From: Fimbriimonadaceae bacterium
Lineage (GTDB): Bacteria > Armatimonadota > Fimbriimonadia > Fimbriimonadales > Fimbriimonadaceae
Direction: 5' to 3'
Assembly (NCBI GenBank): GCA_023957775.1
Contig: JAMLGR010000010.1
Location: 1-64,000 of the forward strand
DNA: 64,000 nt
The position numbers were made by a program, and so were the translations under genes. The notes beneath the pieces are model-generated. The model saw nothing but the letters and a program-made list of their open reading frames with translations, ran no database searches and was not told the DNA's origin. How positions within the stretch are numbered: position 1 is the stretch's first letter; each line of letters begins with the position of its first letter. Below, one piece after another: positions 18,269 to 60,549 of this stretch.

Positions 18269-18300
18269 GCAAACTGATCGCAAACGGGGGGGGGGCTCAG

Positions 18301-19165: not shown

Positions 19166-20491
19166 CTAGGTACCCGCCCGGACTCCTTCGCGCTCAAGGG
19201 CCTTGACCAAGTTGGCCTCGTTTCCCGATCCCACGAGGGCGTCCTTCACCTTCCCGTCCCGCCCGATCACGTACATTGTCGGGATGCCCGACACGTTGTA
19301 CTTCGACGTCGGAATGCTCTCCTTGCCCCTGCCCGCCGGGTCGAAGGCAAACGTGAAGGTGTAGGTCGTCCCCCCGTTCTTCGCGATCCACGCGTCGAAC
19401 GGCGCCTTGGCGTCCAGCACGTTGAGACTGAGCACCACGACCCCCTGATCGCGAACCCGATCGTAGATCTTCTGAAGACCCGGCATCGACTCCTTGCATG
19501 GTCCGCACCACGTCGCCCAGAAGTCGAGGATCACGACCTTTCCCTTGAAGTCGCTGAGCCGGATCGGCTTGCCATCCGGGGTCTGGGCCACGAAGTCGGG
19601 CGCGACGGTGCCGGCGGCGAGAAGCGACTTCTCTTCGACCGGGGCCTGGGGCGCCTCCGATCCCGCGCCGGGAGGCGCCGATGGAACCAACGTCAACTGC
19701 GCTCCGCTGATCGACGGCATGGCGTCCCACCACTGGCCGTCGAGTTCGAAGGGCCGATCGATCGAGAACCGCTCCCGGACGCGCATCGTCTTGCCATCCC
19801 GAGTCTCGGCATAGCCGGTGAAAAGGCCGTCGTCGTTCAAATCCACCATCAGCTCGATGGGACGACGCGTGCGGTCCCCCTGTTTGGGGACCGTGAAGAT
19901 GCCGTCGCTCCCGTTCTCCACCAGAAGGAGCCGGTGAGGCTTGCCGTGGAGGGTCAACCGCCCCTCGCGCGCGCTGAACTTCGTCCACCCCACACGAGGG
20001 TCGCCGTCGCGCTTGTAAAGAAAGAGCGTGTAGGTGCCTGACTCCTCTTCGGAAATGGGAGATCCCCACGAGGCATGGACCTCGACCGCCTTGGAATAAG
20101 AGACGATCCCGTCGATCTCCTTCGCCTCGTCCCACGTCGGCGGGCCATCGTCGGTCAGGTCCCCGTTTTGATTGAGGTCCACAAAGAGACGCCCGGTTTG
20201 CCCAGGCGCCTCGTCGACGGCGAAGTAGGTGACGCATCGCGGTCCGTTGCCCACCTGGAACGCCCCGTACAGCGGTTTGCCGTTGTACGGCGGTTCCTTG
20301 GCGATCCCTTTGGGCTTCTCATCGACCAGGGCCTGCCCCGAAGGCATGTAGCCCATCATGTTCTTCTGCAGCGCCTCCATATCGAGGGCGCGTTGGGAGA
20401 GCGCAAGCTCCAGCGTGATCGCCGCTTGGCCGGCAGCCGTGTGCTGCTGCCCGCAGGCGCAGGCGACCACGCCGAGGGCCAGGACCAGCAT
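19166..20491 (-). CDS. TlpA-like thioredoxin-domain secreted protein (distal)
   Basis: A 441-residue exported protein. After a signal peptide (MLVLALGVVACACG, with a possible lipobox cysteine) comes a beta-rich N-terminal domain of about 280 residues. It carries two EF-hand-like loops, DLNQNGDLTDD and DLNDDGLF. The C-terminal ~150 residues are a TlpA/ResA-type thioredoxin fold with active site FWATWCGPCK and cis-Pro in SGIPTMYVI. It would reduce disulfides, or transfer electrons, outside the cytoplasmic membrane. It starts 3 bp after the stop of a paralogous upstream gene, so the two form one operon. Confidence 0.87.
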   Translation of the reverse strand: MLVLALGVVACACGQQHTAAGQAAITLELALSQRALDMEALQKNMMGYMPSGQALVDEKPKGIAKEPPYNGKPLYGAFQVGNGPRCVTYFAVDEAPGQTGRLFVDLNQNGDLTDDGPPTWDEAKEIDGIVSYSKAVEVHASWGSPISEEESGTYTLFLYKRDGDPRVGWTKFSAREGRLTLHGKPHRLLLVENGSDGIFTVPKQGDRTRRPIELMVDLNDDGLFTGYAETRDGKTMRVRERFSIDRPFELDGQWWDAMPSISGAQLTLVPSAPPGAGSEAPQAPVEEKSLLAAGTVAPDFVAQTPDGKPIRLSDFKGKVVILDFWATWCGPCKESMPGLQKIYDRVRDQGVVVLSLNVLDAKAPFDAWIAKNGGTTYTFTFAFDPAGRGKESIPTSKYNVSGIPTMYVIGRDGKVKDALVGSGNEANLVKALEREGVRAGT

Positions 20492-20494
20492 GGG

Positions 20495-21652
20495 CTAGCC
20501 TCCGCCTTTCCGGTTCGCAAGGGCGGCTTCGATCGCCTTCTCGAGCGCTGCGCCGCGGATCGCGTTCCCGCTGGCCAGGACCTTCCCCGTGTCGCCATCG
20601 ACGAGCAGGCCAAAGGGAATGCCCTCCACGCCGAACTGCTTCCCAATGGTGGTGTCCCAGTACTTGCCCTCGTACACCTGCTTCCACGGCATCGAGTGCT
20701 CTTTTGTGAACGCCGCCACCTTTTCGGCAGCATTGGCCTGGTCGAAGCTGATCCCGAGGATCTCAAAGCCCTTGTCGTGGTACTTCTCGTACGCCTTGAT
20801 CACATTGGGCATCTCCTGGATGCACGGGCCGCACCACGTCGCCCAGAAGTCCACCATGACGATCTTGCCGGCGTAGCTCTTGGGGAAGCTGACCTTCGTG
20901 CCGTCCGTCGCAGTGGCTTGGAACGTGGGCACCATCGCGCCGACGCTGAGGTCGGGCGGCAGCGGGAACTCCTCCACGCTCTTGCTCGAGGTGACGGCCT
21001 GGAACGCTCCGTCGACGATCTTCAACTCGTAGGTCGTCCCGCCGAAGTTGAACGGCTTGTCGGCAGAAATGCTCTCCGCACGGCCGTCGCTCTTGCCGTT
21101 TCCGTTGCGATCCACCCAGAGACGGGTCGTCGGCTCGACACCCCCGGCAAAAGCGATGGGATAGGTCTTTCCGCCGACCGTCAGCTTGCCCTGATAACCG
21201 AAGTCGGTGTAGTAGAGCAGTGTGTTCTTCAGCGCCGCGCGCTGCGGGTCGTTCTTGTCGAACTTGTAGACCACGACCGACGCCAGGTCCCCGTGGACGA
21301 GCACTTGGGCTCCGCCGAAGTACATCGTCATCTCCCCCTGCTTGCGGGGCGCCCACGTCGTGGCGGGATCGTTGGTCAAGTCGCCGTCCGCGTTGCTGTC
21401 CACGTACAGCTGCGCGGTGCCGCCGTCCGGATCGTCGAGGATGAACGCGTAGCGCTTCCCTTCGATCGCGAAGGACCCGAACATCGGCGCCTGAAGGCCG
21501 CCCGGCCTCTTGGCGACGCCCGTGGCGTCGGCGCTCATTTCAGCGCGGATTGGAATGTAGCCGCCCATCTTGGCCGTCATGCCGCTGGGGACGAATGTGA
21601 GGCCCCCGCCTTGGGAGGCAAGGAGGGCGCCGGTTAGGAGCAAGGTCACCAT
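20495..21652 (-). CDS. TlpA-like thioredoxin-domain secreted protein (proximal)
   Basis: A 385-residue paralogue of the gene downstream. The ATG at 21652 gives a signal peptide (VTLLLTGALLASQGGG); a longer frame to 21769 only prepends Arg-rich residues. The N-terminal domain has calcium-type loops (DSNADGDLTND and DRNGNGKSDG). The C-terminal thioredoxin domain has FWATWCGPCIQEMP and the cis-Pro motif EGIPFGLLVDG. The CxxC is intact. No Shine-Dalgarno is evident before the ATG, so translation may be leaderless. The paralogues probably act on separate targets. Confidence 0.86.
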   Translation of the reverse strand: MVTLLLTGALLASQGGGLTFVPSGMTAKMGGYIPIRAEMSADATGVAKRPGGLQAPMFGSFAIEGKRYAFILDDPDGGTAQLYVDSNADGDLTNDPATTWAPRKQGEMTMYFGGAQVLVHGDLASVVVYKFDKNDPQRAALKNTLLYYTDFGYQGKLTVGGKTYPIAFAGGVEPTTRLWVDRNGNGKSDGRAESISADKPFNFGGTTYELKIVDGAFQAVTSSKSVEEFPLPPDLSVGAMVPTFQATATDGTKVSFPKSYAGKIVMVDFWATWCGPCIQEMPNVIKAYEKYHDKGFEILGISFDQANAAEKVAAFTKEHSMPWKQVYEGKYWDTTIGKQFGVEGIPFGLLVDGDTGKVLASGNAIRGAALEKAIEAALANRKGGG

Positions 21653-21681: not shown

Positions 21682-24532
21682 CTACCCTGCGCCGACCACG
21701 GAATGCATGACGCTCAACCAATCCGCCGCCTGACCGGCCGAAGGCAGCGAGCGCAGGCGATCGACGCACCGCGCGAGATGATCCCGCACCTCGCGCTCCC
21801 CCGCTATCGCAACCTTCAGCTTCGGTGGCTGCGTGAACGTCCTCTTCTCGAGCCGCTCGAACAGACGCTGGTTGGGCGCATAGAGCGGCGCGGCGCCCAA
21901 GCGATCGATCAAGGTTCGCGTCGTCCGGGCCTCCTCATCGAATCCCAACTCGAAAAGACTTGCGCACAGGGTGACCATCGACGACTTGGCCAGGCGCCGA
22001 AACTCCTCGCTGTATCCAAAGTCGAGCAAGAGCAACGTGCCCACGACCTCCGAGAGGGCGGCCTTCGCGTACAGCTTTCGCTCAAATGCGATCTGGCCCA
22101 GATTTTGGAGGATCTCGCCGGTGGCGCGCAGGTCGTTGCGTTCCCGCGCGTGCGCCAGGGTCGCCTCGAGGATCAGCCCGGCGGAGTCCAAATCGGCATC
22201 CAGTCGATAACGCAGGCGCCCGATACATGTGTTCACAAGGCTCTCCACCCCGGGGATCGGTCGCCGCCGTGAAGTGATCCGAGGCGGCCTCTTGGGCGGC
22301 CAAAGCCTCGTCCAACCGCTCCTGCGACTCGAGGAGGGTTCCCAGGTTGTAGTAACACTTGACGAGCGTCGACTCGTCGACTTCTTCGTCGGCTTCCGCG
22401 AGCGCCTGGCGGTACCTCTCGATGGCCGCCTCGGGGTGGCCGAGCGCGCGTTCGGCGAGCCCCGACTGCATCGTCAGTTGACACCTTTGATCGCTTGCCG
22501 CGGCCCGCTCCGGGGTCATCTCGAGGGCGATCTGGACGAGCTCCCTCATGCGCTCGAACGCGCCTGCGTGAAAGTAGGCGGCGGACAGGGAGAGCACCGC
22601 GGGCAACCACCCGGGAGCTTCGACACGCGGGTCCACGAGAAGGAATCGGTCGACGGCTTGAAGCTGCGATGTGCCCAAGGCGCTGGATCCGAGCCAAGGT
22701 CGGATCGACGCGAACAAGAGGGTCGCGTGGTCGCCCGCACCTTCACCGATCAACTGGCCCACGATCTCGAGGGCCACGGGAAGGGAGTCCGCGATCTGGA
22801 GGTCGAGCGGCGTCTCCTCGCCACGCCGCGCAAACCAATCGACGCTCCTTTCTCGAAAGCGCCGAAACAGGTCGGCGCTCCTTCCCCCCTCGGAGACCGA
22901 TGTCAGCGCGGCCGCAGTCGAACGCAAAACGCGAACGTACGAGGATGTTCCATCGCGAGAGATCAACCCGGAGAGCAGCCCTTCTTCCAGATCGCACGGC
23001 ATCGCTCCGGAGCACTCGAGCAGGTGATCGATGTGGCAACGACCGCCCAATCCCGCAACCAGGGTCACCACGCCTTGCGCCTGCGGACCCAGATTGCGAT
23101 AGCTGCTTTCGATCGCGTTCCGGAGGGAGGAGCGACGATTCGCACTGCCCCGGTCGCTTGTCAGTGCATCGAGGTTGCGGCGCAGGCTGCCGATCGTGGC
23201 GGCCACGCCGATCGATCCTCCGAGGCGGCCGGCGATCTCGAGGGCCATCGGAATGCCATCGCAGAGTTCGGCCATTTCGAAGAGCTGCGCATCGGGAGAT
23301 CCCGTTGCCTTCGGGTCGACCACCCGCTCAAGGTTGCGCACGAGAAGCTCGATGGCGGGGCCGGGGGTGCACGGATCTCCCAGTTCCAACGGCCCCAAGG
23401 TCATCATTCCCTCGCCAGGCAGCCCCAGACGGGTGTGGCTGGCGCACACGAAGCGGGCCTCCGGATGGGTCCGGAGAAGTTGCTCGACCGTATGCCGATG
23501 CTCCGCCTCGACATGGTCGAGCAACACGACCTCGCACGTGCTCTCGGTCAGCAGCCGCGCGACGAGATCCGGTGGCTGCAATTCGAAGTCGAAGTGGGCG
23601 GTCTCCATCAGAGGGGAAACCCGCCAGAAGAGGACACGCAGAAGATGCGACTTACCGATGCCCGATTGCCCGGTCAGCGTCGTCAAGCGCCTCCCGCGAT
23701 CGTCTCGCACCAAGTCCATGAGGGCCGCCAGATGCTCCCGGCGACCGACCATCGGCGCCGATTCGGGAGCGATGCCCCAGCGGCGACCCTGGGGCCGATC
23801 CATCCCCGAGAGCAGCGACTCGAACAGGCTCGACACCGCGCTCGGAACCTGTTCGCCGCAATCGTCGTCGAGTTGGGCCTCGTACGAGGAGAACGTCTGG
23901 ACCACTTCCTCCTTCAACCCCAGGGCCGCGTAGATGCGCATCAACGCTTGGACGCGGTGCGACGAAGGCGTCCGCTGGAAACCAAACTCCGCGAGCCGCT
24001 CCAGAATCAACGGCGCGTGCTTCTGGCCCAAGGGCCCCGTGGCAAGACACTCCAGAGCTTCGAGCACCATGCCTTGGAGCTGCGATCGGATCGGGCTCAG
24101 CAACGGGTGCTCGAGGTCGCTGAAAGGCGTCGCGCGGGCAACATCCAACGCTTCCTGCCAGAACGCACAGGCAGCCAACGAATCGCGTTCGTGGCGCGCG
24201 CGCTGGGTGGCCTCGGCAAACGCCTTGACGTCGCACAGAAAACTCGACGCGCAAAGCCCGACTTCATCGGGAGTCACATAGAGCAAGGAGAGCTCGGAGT
24301 GGGCCGCCAAGGCCGTTTGAGCGCGGGTTAGGAGCAGGGCGAAATTGGGACTCCAAGCGAGGTCGTCTTCGTCGAACAGGGCGTGGGCGAGGGCCCGACG
24401 GTCCGCGTACAACGATGGTTGCGACGCCAAATAGGCGATCATCGCCTTGAGTCGCTTGCTCCTGGTTCGGAAGAGCCTGCCGTCAGGCCCCACCAAACTG
24501 AACGGCCCAAACAGGCACGCTTTCCACTTCAT
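21682..24532 (-). CDS. SARP/BTAD regulator with NTPase and TPR domains, split by a frameshift
   Basis: Read as one gene of about 949 codons. The ATG at 24532 follows GAGGCGG. An N-terminal SARP winged-helix-like region (CLFGPFSLVGPDG, RSKRLKAMIAYLA) leads into a BTAD. Next comes an NB-ARC/STAND-type NTPase with Walker A LTGQSGIGKSHLL at about 286-298 and CEVVLLDHVEA as Walker B, then TPR helices. The frame breaks at CCCCGGGG (22248-22255): upstream TPR residues end ...FTAATDP, and the TPR pattern resumes in the next frame as VESLVNTCIGRLRY and runs to the stop at 21682. Without a shift, the first frame ends in Arg-rich residues at 22082. One extra base in the run, a sequencing error or a +1 programmed shift would all explain it. 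Confidence 0.75.
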
Positions 24533-24574
24533 TCGCGAACCGCCTCGCCCTCCGATCATAACACGGAGCTGAAA

Positions 24575-24592
24575 GTGAAATGCAAGTGAAAT
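24575..24592. promoter_or_regulatory. 11-bp-period GTGAAAT direct repeat upstream of the SARP gene
   Basis: GTGAAAT-GCAA-GTGAAAT on the plus strand: two identical heptamers with a 4-bp spacer. They lie between the divergent SARP gene (ATG 24532) and the secreted-protein gene at 24627. The geometry equals that at 982-1060 and 30050-30067, and fits SARP operators. Autoregulation is an inference. Confidence 0.45.
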
Positions 24593-56275: not shown

Positions 56276-57019
56276 TCATCCTCCGATGCGCAAGACCGTG
56301 TCGCGCAGCCACTCGATCCACACGAAGTACATCCGGTCGATCAGCAGCGTGAAGCGCATCATGACCGTCGATCCGAAGATCGCGCCGAAACCGACCATCA
56401 GCAGCCAGCGGCCCGACGTGGTCATCCCGCGCATGAACCGGTTCTTGAAGTCGAACGAGAACAAGAAGTACGAGATCACGCACAAGACCGTGATCACCAT
56501 GATCAGGTTCGTGAGCGCCTGCGAGACGTACACGTTCCCCGCCACCGCCGCCGCCTGGTCGGGCGTCATCCCCTCGGTCGAAGGAACGAACGGCGGGCTC
56601 CACGTCGTGGGCACGATCGGCCGCAGGGCCGTGTTGATCTGCGCCCCGTACCGGTTGAACCACACCTGGACCTGCTGACCCGACCACAGGCCGATGATGA
56701 TTCCGATCGGAATCCGGCTGAGCCAGTTGTGCTTCTTCGAGAACACGGTATAGCCCGCCAATCCGATCGGAAGCAAGAACGCGTACGCCCAAAATCCCGG
56801 CGTGTCGGGTCCGCCGCTCTCCGAGAGCGAACCGACCATCTTGTCCCACCACACGTCTTTGAGCGTCTCGGTCCAGAGGATCACCAGCGCCCAGCCCGCA
56901 GCCAAGCCGAGGAACAGGTGCTCGAAGAACCGGTAGAACTTGTTCTCCTTCCAGAGCACGCTGTAGAGTCCGATGGTGGCGATCACACCCACCGTCAACT
57001 TGATGAGTTTGTAGTCCAT
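56276..57019 (-). CDS. Uncharacterised membrane protein of the glmU-recO operon
   Basis: A 247-residue inner-membrane protein with about six helices (LIKLTVGVIATIGLYSVLW, FEHLFLGLAAGWALVILW, LLPIGLAGYTVF, IPIGIIIGLWSG, LIMVITVLCVISYFLFSF, WLLMVGFGAIFGSTVMM). A loop of about 45 residues contains VPTTWSPPFVPSTEGM. I do not recognise it. It starts 1 bp after the stop of the gene before it; recO follows within 5 bp. Position suggests a shared membrane complex with the next three proteins. Confidence 0.7.
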   Translation of the reverse strand: MDYKLIKLTVGVIATIGLYSVLWKENKFYRFFEHLFLGLAAGWALVILWTETLKDVWWDKMVGSLSESGGPDTPGFWAYAFLLPIGLAGYTVFSKKHNWLSRIPIGIIIGLWSGQQVQVWFNRYGAQINTALRPIVPTTWSPPFVPSTEGMTPDQAAAVAGNVYVSQALTNLIMVITVLCVISYFLFSFDFKNRFMRGMTTSGRWLLMVGFGAIFGSTVMMRFTLLIDRMYFVWIEWLRDTVLRIGG

Positions 57020-59835: not shown

Positions 59836-60131
59836 GATTCCTCCGTCTCGTCCGTCCTCCCCTGCGCGATCTGATCGAGCAGACGATCAATCAGCTCGCG
59901 CTTGGAAAGAAGCCGAGAATAGTTGTTCACAAAATCGAACCCTAAGAAGGGGACGGTGAATGGCGCGAAAACGATTGCCGCGTGTCCGCCAACGTTGGCC
60001 AGGGGTTTGTGCATCTCCAACATCACGGTTGCGGGCACCTCAAGCTTCCGCCTGCGGATCTCCTTCACTGCTTTCTGGATCAGCGCCTCGGATTCCTCCT
60101 CCGTCAGCTCGTTCTCCCACAGATTGAACAT
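59808..60131 (-). CDS. Small conserved-looking protein of the operon
   Basis: A 107-residue protein. It has an N-terminal charged helix (ELTEEESEALIQKAVKEIRR), then LEVPATVMLEMHKPLANVGG with a hydrophobic stretch (AAIVFAPFTVPFLGFDFV) and a C-terminal helix. I recall similar small proteins in related bacteria but cannot name a function. Its first 92 bp overlap the previous gene in another frame, and its last 28 bp overlap the DUF6754-like gene. Because its N-terminus looks authentic, the previous gene's tail may be the unusual part. Confidence 0.6.
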   Translation of the reverse strand: MFNLWENELTEEESEALIQKAVKEIRRRKLEVPATVMLEMHKPLANVGGHAAIVFAPFTVPFLGFDFVNNYSRLLSKRELIDRLLDQIAQGRTDETEESCNTATQDG

Positions 60132-60549
60132 CTTTGCCCCAGTACGCGCTTATCTTAGCGAGAACCGCCTCTCGATGCGCGCCGAACCGCACAAATACGC
60201 CGCGAAAGGGCGCCATTCGCCCCGATTCCGCGAGCGGCGAGAGCTTCACGCCCTCGTCGTCGAGGATCGCGCGCCTCACCTGCTCCCACTCCAAAGACGT
60301 CGTGCTGAGCCCCACGGTCACATGCGCGCCCTTCGCGTCCAGCCGGTTTCGGATCGGCATCCAGTACTCGGCGGTCGAAGCCATCACCGCCACGAAGCCG
60401 ATCAGCGCGAACAGCGCCTGCCCCATCCAGAACCAACCCGCCGCCGCGGCCACCATCGCCGCAGCCCAAACCACGTAACGCTTCCATGGCTCCTTGTCCG
60501 ACAAACGTACGACCCATCGAAACGGTTCGTCCTCTTTAGCGCCAGTCAT
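60040..60549 (-). CDS. Hypothetical protein with two membrane helices
   Basis: A 169-residue protein. A helix hairpin lies near residues 25-60 (YVVWAAAMVAAAAGWFWMGQ and LFALIGFVAVMASTAEYW). A soluble PH-like strand-rich region follows (VTVGLSTTSLEWEQVRRAIL, FRGVFVRFGAHREAVLAKI). It starts inside prs (14-bp overlap). The last ~30 residues overlap the next gene and are Gly/Asp/Glu-rich, so they could be non-functional. The family is not recognised. Confidence 0.6.
   Translation of the reverse strand: MTGAKEDEPFRWVVRLSDKEPWKRYVVWAAAMVAAAAGWFWMGQALFALIGFVAVMASTAEYWMPIRNRLDAKGAHVTVGLSTTSLEWEQVRRAILDDEGVKLSPLAESGRMAPFRGVFVRFGAHREAVLAKISAYWGKDVQSVGERADGGGIRGADPESSEGDPQAEA

Follow-up and report, generated by a model that had tools for sequence, protein, structure and literature searches.

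The minus-strand regulator gene considered here is encoded in two frames that meet at CCCCGGGG within the window, meaning the whole 64,000-nucleotide stretch of DNA that was analyzed. The frame break is real in the assembly but most likely not in the organism, where the regulator gene is most likely intact and codes for one protein of about 949 residues. From the rate of such shifts alone, we infer that the break is probably a consensus error of the draft assembly in which a single base was inserted, so that one surplus base at CCCCGGGG would split an otherwise whole gene. The frameshift itself is therefore of low interest, while the regulator and a putative operator ahead of its gene are of modest interest; the lasting result is a subfamily of regulators whose gene is preceded, in four genera, by a paired 11-bp repeat.

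A regulator gene read in two frames

The gene can be followed as a single long gene from ATG 24532 to TAG 21682 (Table 1). Frame 0 reads through TDPR to 22250 and then degenerates into Arg-rich residues until a stop at 22082, whereas the second frame takes over at 22248 with VESLVNTC and stops at 21682. Comparison of the frames with those of two orthologues, in genomes G011 and G022, showed that the CCCCGGGG run holds one base more than a continuous frame permits. A frameshift-aware codon Viterbi model, trained on this genome and using no homology, also called a one-base excess, at 22258. Both halves of the gene look coding: GC by codon position is 0.68/0.49/0.79 ahead of the run and 0.67/0.45/0.80 in the part after it, while the out-of-frame tail (0.78/0.71/0.42) is unlike a gene. 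The preliminary description had proposed just this, a single SARP-NTPase-TPR gene whose frame slips by one base at CCCCGGGG, and the frames, the orthologues and the codon model all bear it out. Its size for the restored protein, about 949 residues, also agrees with the continuous-frame product (761 + 188 = 949 residues). Its 825 residues for the assembled product hold if counting begins at ATG 24559; the G011 orthologue shares the start at ATG 24532 (MKWK), from which the assembled frame-0 product has 816 residues.

Table 1. Coordinates of the features discussed (window positions unless a genome, contig or locus is given; G000 is this genome).
Feature	Position	Strand	Basis
N-terminal part, frame 0, 761 codons: predicted SARP DNA-binding + BTAD, STAND-like NTPase, first TPRs	22250..24532	-	Pfam; alignment with G011
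CCCCGGGG run, one base too long	22248..22255	-	Frame comparison with G011/G022; codon model shift at 22258
C-terminal part, other frame, 188 residues + stop, TPR region continued	21682..22248	-	Homology to G011/G022
Arg-rich tail with which the assembled frame-0 ORF runs on out of frame; no genuine coding stretch	22082..22249	-	GC by codon position
Direct repeat TTTCACTT-GCA-TTTCACTT, 11-bp period, putative SARP operator	24573..24591	-	Exact-pattern counts; placement
TATGAT, possible -10 element	24556..24561	-	Read by eye; CATGAT at equal distance in G011
Exact paired-repeat sites	24573-24591 (minus); G011:C13:109854; G022:C195:9218; G107:C97:63375; G000:C19:40218		
Further one-base frame breaks (upp, jag, tryptophan 2,3-dioxygenase)	L041:16183, L056:6821, L057:4961 (G000 contigs C1, C16, C17)		

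We looked for homologues in 61 genomes and searched the second half alone against the 85 genomes of the family. Two orthologues were found. The second half matched 5 of the 85 genomes, namely the window's own, G011 (E 3.7e-63), G022 (E 3.1e-51) and, through weak TPR-region matches that were left out of the comparison, G074 and G094. A contig search with the window protein as query gave no match, and one with the protein alignment as query returned only the already known orthologue genomes, G011 and G022. In the alignment with G011, 375 of 762 aligned residues of the N-terminal part are identical (49%, with this part counted from 24559), as are 116 of 185 in the C-terminal part (63%). The G011 orthologue is a single open frame through TDPR-VESLVSTC, and that of G022, although the gene is split over two contigs, reads TDPR-VETLVNTS in one frame on the contig that spans the join. 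The CCCCGGGG run is missing from both, the DNA there being CCTAGAGTG and CCTCGAGTT. G107 (22% over 864 residues) and G018 (24% over 906 residues) each contain a more distant homologue of full length that also crosses the join in one frame, and all four genomes belong to genera other than the window's. According to the preliminary description, homologues ending naturally near 22082 would have told against a split gene; these four all run past that point, so the second half belongs to the regulator protein. We also noticed that the record with the G011 orthologue (JADZEW010000013.1) is titled Methanoregulaceae archaeon, yet the genome falls in the window's family, so it is evidently a mislabelled bin.

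The surroundings of the gene were also inspected. About 30 bp behind the regulator stop, on the same strand, lie two adjacent thioredoxin-like genes (19166-21652; WATWCGPC read by eye). As this pair adjoins the regulator in neither G011 nor G022, the neighbours give no function. Farther along, a ten-G run between predicted genes (18286-18295) is the longest homopolymer in the window.

We considered how a ribosome could still use both frames. Reinitiation at GTG 22248 was ruled out, as no ribosome-binding sequence is visible by eye ahead of it and the orthologues are continuous. In a programmed +1 frameshift, a tRNA on CCC would slip to the overlapping CCC at CCCCGGGG and yield truncated and full-length products; the CCC-C phase suits such slippage and each frame is coding on its own side. 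We nevertheless regard it as very improbable, considering that the site is not conserved, that the orthologues have neither shift nor run, and that no stop or rare codon stands at the site (CCC is used 24.0 and the next codon, CGG, 20.4 times per thousand). Shuffled sequences fold slightly better than the 88 nt downstream of the run (z +0.94). Moreover, predicted genes in 464 kb of this genome, excluding those with other called shifts, contain 23 CCCCGGGG runs, 7 of them in this phase, and the 6 other same-phase runs all lie in unbroken genes.

Phase variation through slipped-strand mispairing at CCCCGGGG would agree with a one-base change in a homopolymer context within a regulator gene. Phase-variable homopolymer genes typically carry tracts of about seven or more bases, whereas the tracts here are merely 4 C and 4 G, exact-four tracts abound in the window (268 of C and 191 of G), and no tract is retained at this site in the orthologues, making this reading scarcely credible. 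It is likewise very doubtful that the longer run is both real and used as a switch, in which +1 slippage or a reversible change of length at CCCCGGGG would set the ratio between a TPR-truncated, self-activating form and a full-length, signal-gated one, both acting on the gene's own TTTCACTT repeat.

The half after the shift is conserved, normal in codon composition and without a stop, and any lesion is thus recent or absent. A real, recent frameshift mutation, by which the strain lost the last ~190 residues of its TPR sensor, fits all the sequence facts, and the gene carries no other lesion, as a recent event would leave it. AfsR that lacks its TPR domain is reported to retain both DNA binding and activation in vitro (PMC10936776). 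If such a mutation were true, the truncated regulator would be inactive, or else locked in the active state, should the TPR part hold back the SARP domain the way it does in AfsR. We consider it rather unlikely, as other genes of the same assembly point to a technical cause.

One-base shifts elsewhere in the assembly

The codon model was run over 464,000 bases, that is, the window and 20 stretches of 20 kb with 430 predicted genes in total, and called 11 shifts. Inspection and homology divided these calls into 4 supported shifts, 3 gene boundaries, 1 overlapping pair, 1 unconvincing call and 2 unsettled ones. The supported shifts, each of a single base and together of both signs, fall in unrelated genes: this regulator, upp, jag and tryptophan 2,3-dioxygenase. 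Both pieces of upp match UPRTase (profile positions 1-182 and 180-206), and in jag the match to Jag_N lies in a different frame from those to KH and R3H. For the dioxygenase, the two relatives whose N-terminus was compared are continuous in frame at the shift, these being the 2 of 5 relative loci that matched the motif used.

The other calls were set apart for different reasons. Those at 56284, L060:19630 and L048:18425 are gene boundaries, the last between genes that we take to be murA and mreB, and L060:13356 lies at a gene end and is unconvincing. No Pfam support for a shift was obtained at L058:3380 or L056:11061. The call at 60135 was rejected because it falls in an overlapping gene pair, the relatives of whose first gene extend past that point in many genomes: two genes at 59841-60504 share about 90 bases in different frames, the first being present in 36 of 37 genomes, and this looks like a conserved overlap rather than a frameshift.

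With the window set aside, since its shift was the reason for choosing it, 3 supported shifts are left in 400 kb, and these are suggestive of residual indel errors. Single-base shifts that are of both signs and fall in unrelated genes without other damage are the pattern of an imperfect consensus, and we therefore favor an indel error at CCCCGGGG as well. With three more supported one-base shifts in the 464 kb, in genes that are normally intact, a common technical cause is likelier than a recent mutation of the regulator. On the other side, 3 in 400 kb are too few for firm separation from the controls (none in G007, 1 plausible in G011). It is usually not at runs of four that sequencing does worst, and some frameshifted genes also occur in real strains. 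In the one-contig genome G007 (400,000 bases, 363 genes), the model made 2 calls, neither a convincing broken conserved gene by eye. In G011 (229,568 bases, 199 genes), it made 6 calls, of which L063:11477 looks by eye like a true shift, but with a 29-residue tail that has no same-family match; L062 is a gene boundary by eye, and those in L070 and L072 and the two in L073 are unsettled.

Therefore, of the four readings that the preliminary description had left side by side, a programmed shift and phase variation are disfavored and a sequencing or assembly indel is favored, with a recent mutation as a possible but unlikely alternative. Given the scattered one-base indels, apparent pseudogenes and split genes in this assembly should not be taken as biology without the reads.

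An AfsR-type regulator and a paired repeat ahead of its gene

By its sequence, the regulator is an AfsR-type large SARP with a predicted SARP DNA-binding and BTAD part, a STAND-like NTPase and a TPR sensor. In the window protein, Pfam scored BTAD at 23.9 bits, over the gathering score of 22.1, AAA_16 at 31.8 bits, just under the cut-off of 32.6, and TPR_12 at 26.3 bits, under the cut-off of 30.1, all TPR models remaining below their cut-offs; a Walker A candidate, GQSGIGKS, can be read. The G011 orthologue scored above the cut-offs for AAA_16 (33.0), TPR_1, TPR_2 and TPR_12. Pfam detected no winged helix in the window protein, and in the G107 homologue Trans_reg_C reached 22.3, below the cut-off of 26.2. 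The BTAD had no Pfam match at E 0.01 in the proteins of G011, G022 and G107, which counts against the SARP label. We kept the AfsR-type label since this is offset by a profile of five N-terminal parts, for which the top three PDB matches were AfsR chains (E 0.0008 to 0.003), the alignment covering both the DNA-binding and the BTAD parts of AfsR. By sequence, the features that define the AfsR type are thus present in order, with a BTAD after a predicted N-terminal winged helix, a STAND/NOD NTPase with Walker A and a C-terminal TPR region.

The direct repeat TTTCACTT-GCA-TTTCACTT lies 40 bp upstream of ATG 24532. We counted the exact pattern TTTCACTTNNNTTTCACTT (TTTCACTT-N3-TTTCACTT) in 113 genomes of the class and obtained 5 copies in 4 genomes, against 0 copies of the reversed-letter control. 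The number expected from base composition is about 0.01 to 0.04 over 85 genomes; an expectation of 0.85, calculated on 8 kb of AT-rich G107 sequence, was set aside. Four of the five exact sites are followed, 39-48 bp on, by the start of this gene or of a homologue (window 40, G011 39, G022 48 and G107 41 bp, the G107 start codon being uncertain). The fifth, also in this genome, lies 87 bp before a gene for a P-type ATPase, a family named by eye. The paired repeat is absent before the distant homologue in G018.

Relaxed patterns were also tried. One-mismatch hits were not used, as the reversed control gave hits too, at least some of which probably represent these sites in a register shifted by one base; two one-mismatch sites in G011 (contig C24) are followed by no clear gene. 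A regulon search with a looser pattern gave mostly chance-like matches and was not used, its control being void because TTCACTT is the same backwards. No biosynthetic cluster linked to the regulator was identified, this without a systematic search.

Considering that its geometry and placement match those of the afs box, the paired TTTCACTT repeat is probably an autoregulatory SARP operator. The paired repeat ahead of the regulator's own gene would be bound by the SARP part, on which the NTPase and TPR parts would act as a restraint until a signal arrives.

Comparison with known systems

The scattered one-base shifts of both signs in otherwise intact, unrelated genes resemble the residual indel errors of draft and long-read assemblies. 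As in the programmed +1 frameshift of prfB, one shift of +1 would be enough to give a single protein. In prfB, however, the site and its signals are conserved, whereas here the relatives lack the shift, and no rare codon, stop or structure is found at the site.

The closest likeness in architecture is with AfsR of Streptomyces coelicolor (SARP-NOD-TPR; PMC10936776), which has the same domain order. The two differ in that their sequence similarity is very low, that the present protein comes from another phylum, that its half-site is TTTCACTT and that its frame is broken in this assembly. The afs box is reported to be a pair of 11-bp direct repeats, each contacted over its first 8 bp but not over its last 3 (PMC10936776), and in the PimR paper the classical SARP unit is put at 11 bp (PMC5930380). 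The putative operator ahead of the regulator gene, two 11-bp direct repeats with 8 conserved and 3 free bp near the promoter, resembles the afs box as set out there, a likeness read from sequence only. If the binding is true, the operator logic of the AfsR type, known from Streptomyces, would extend to Armatimonadota and provide a handle on the regulon.
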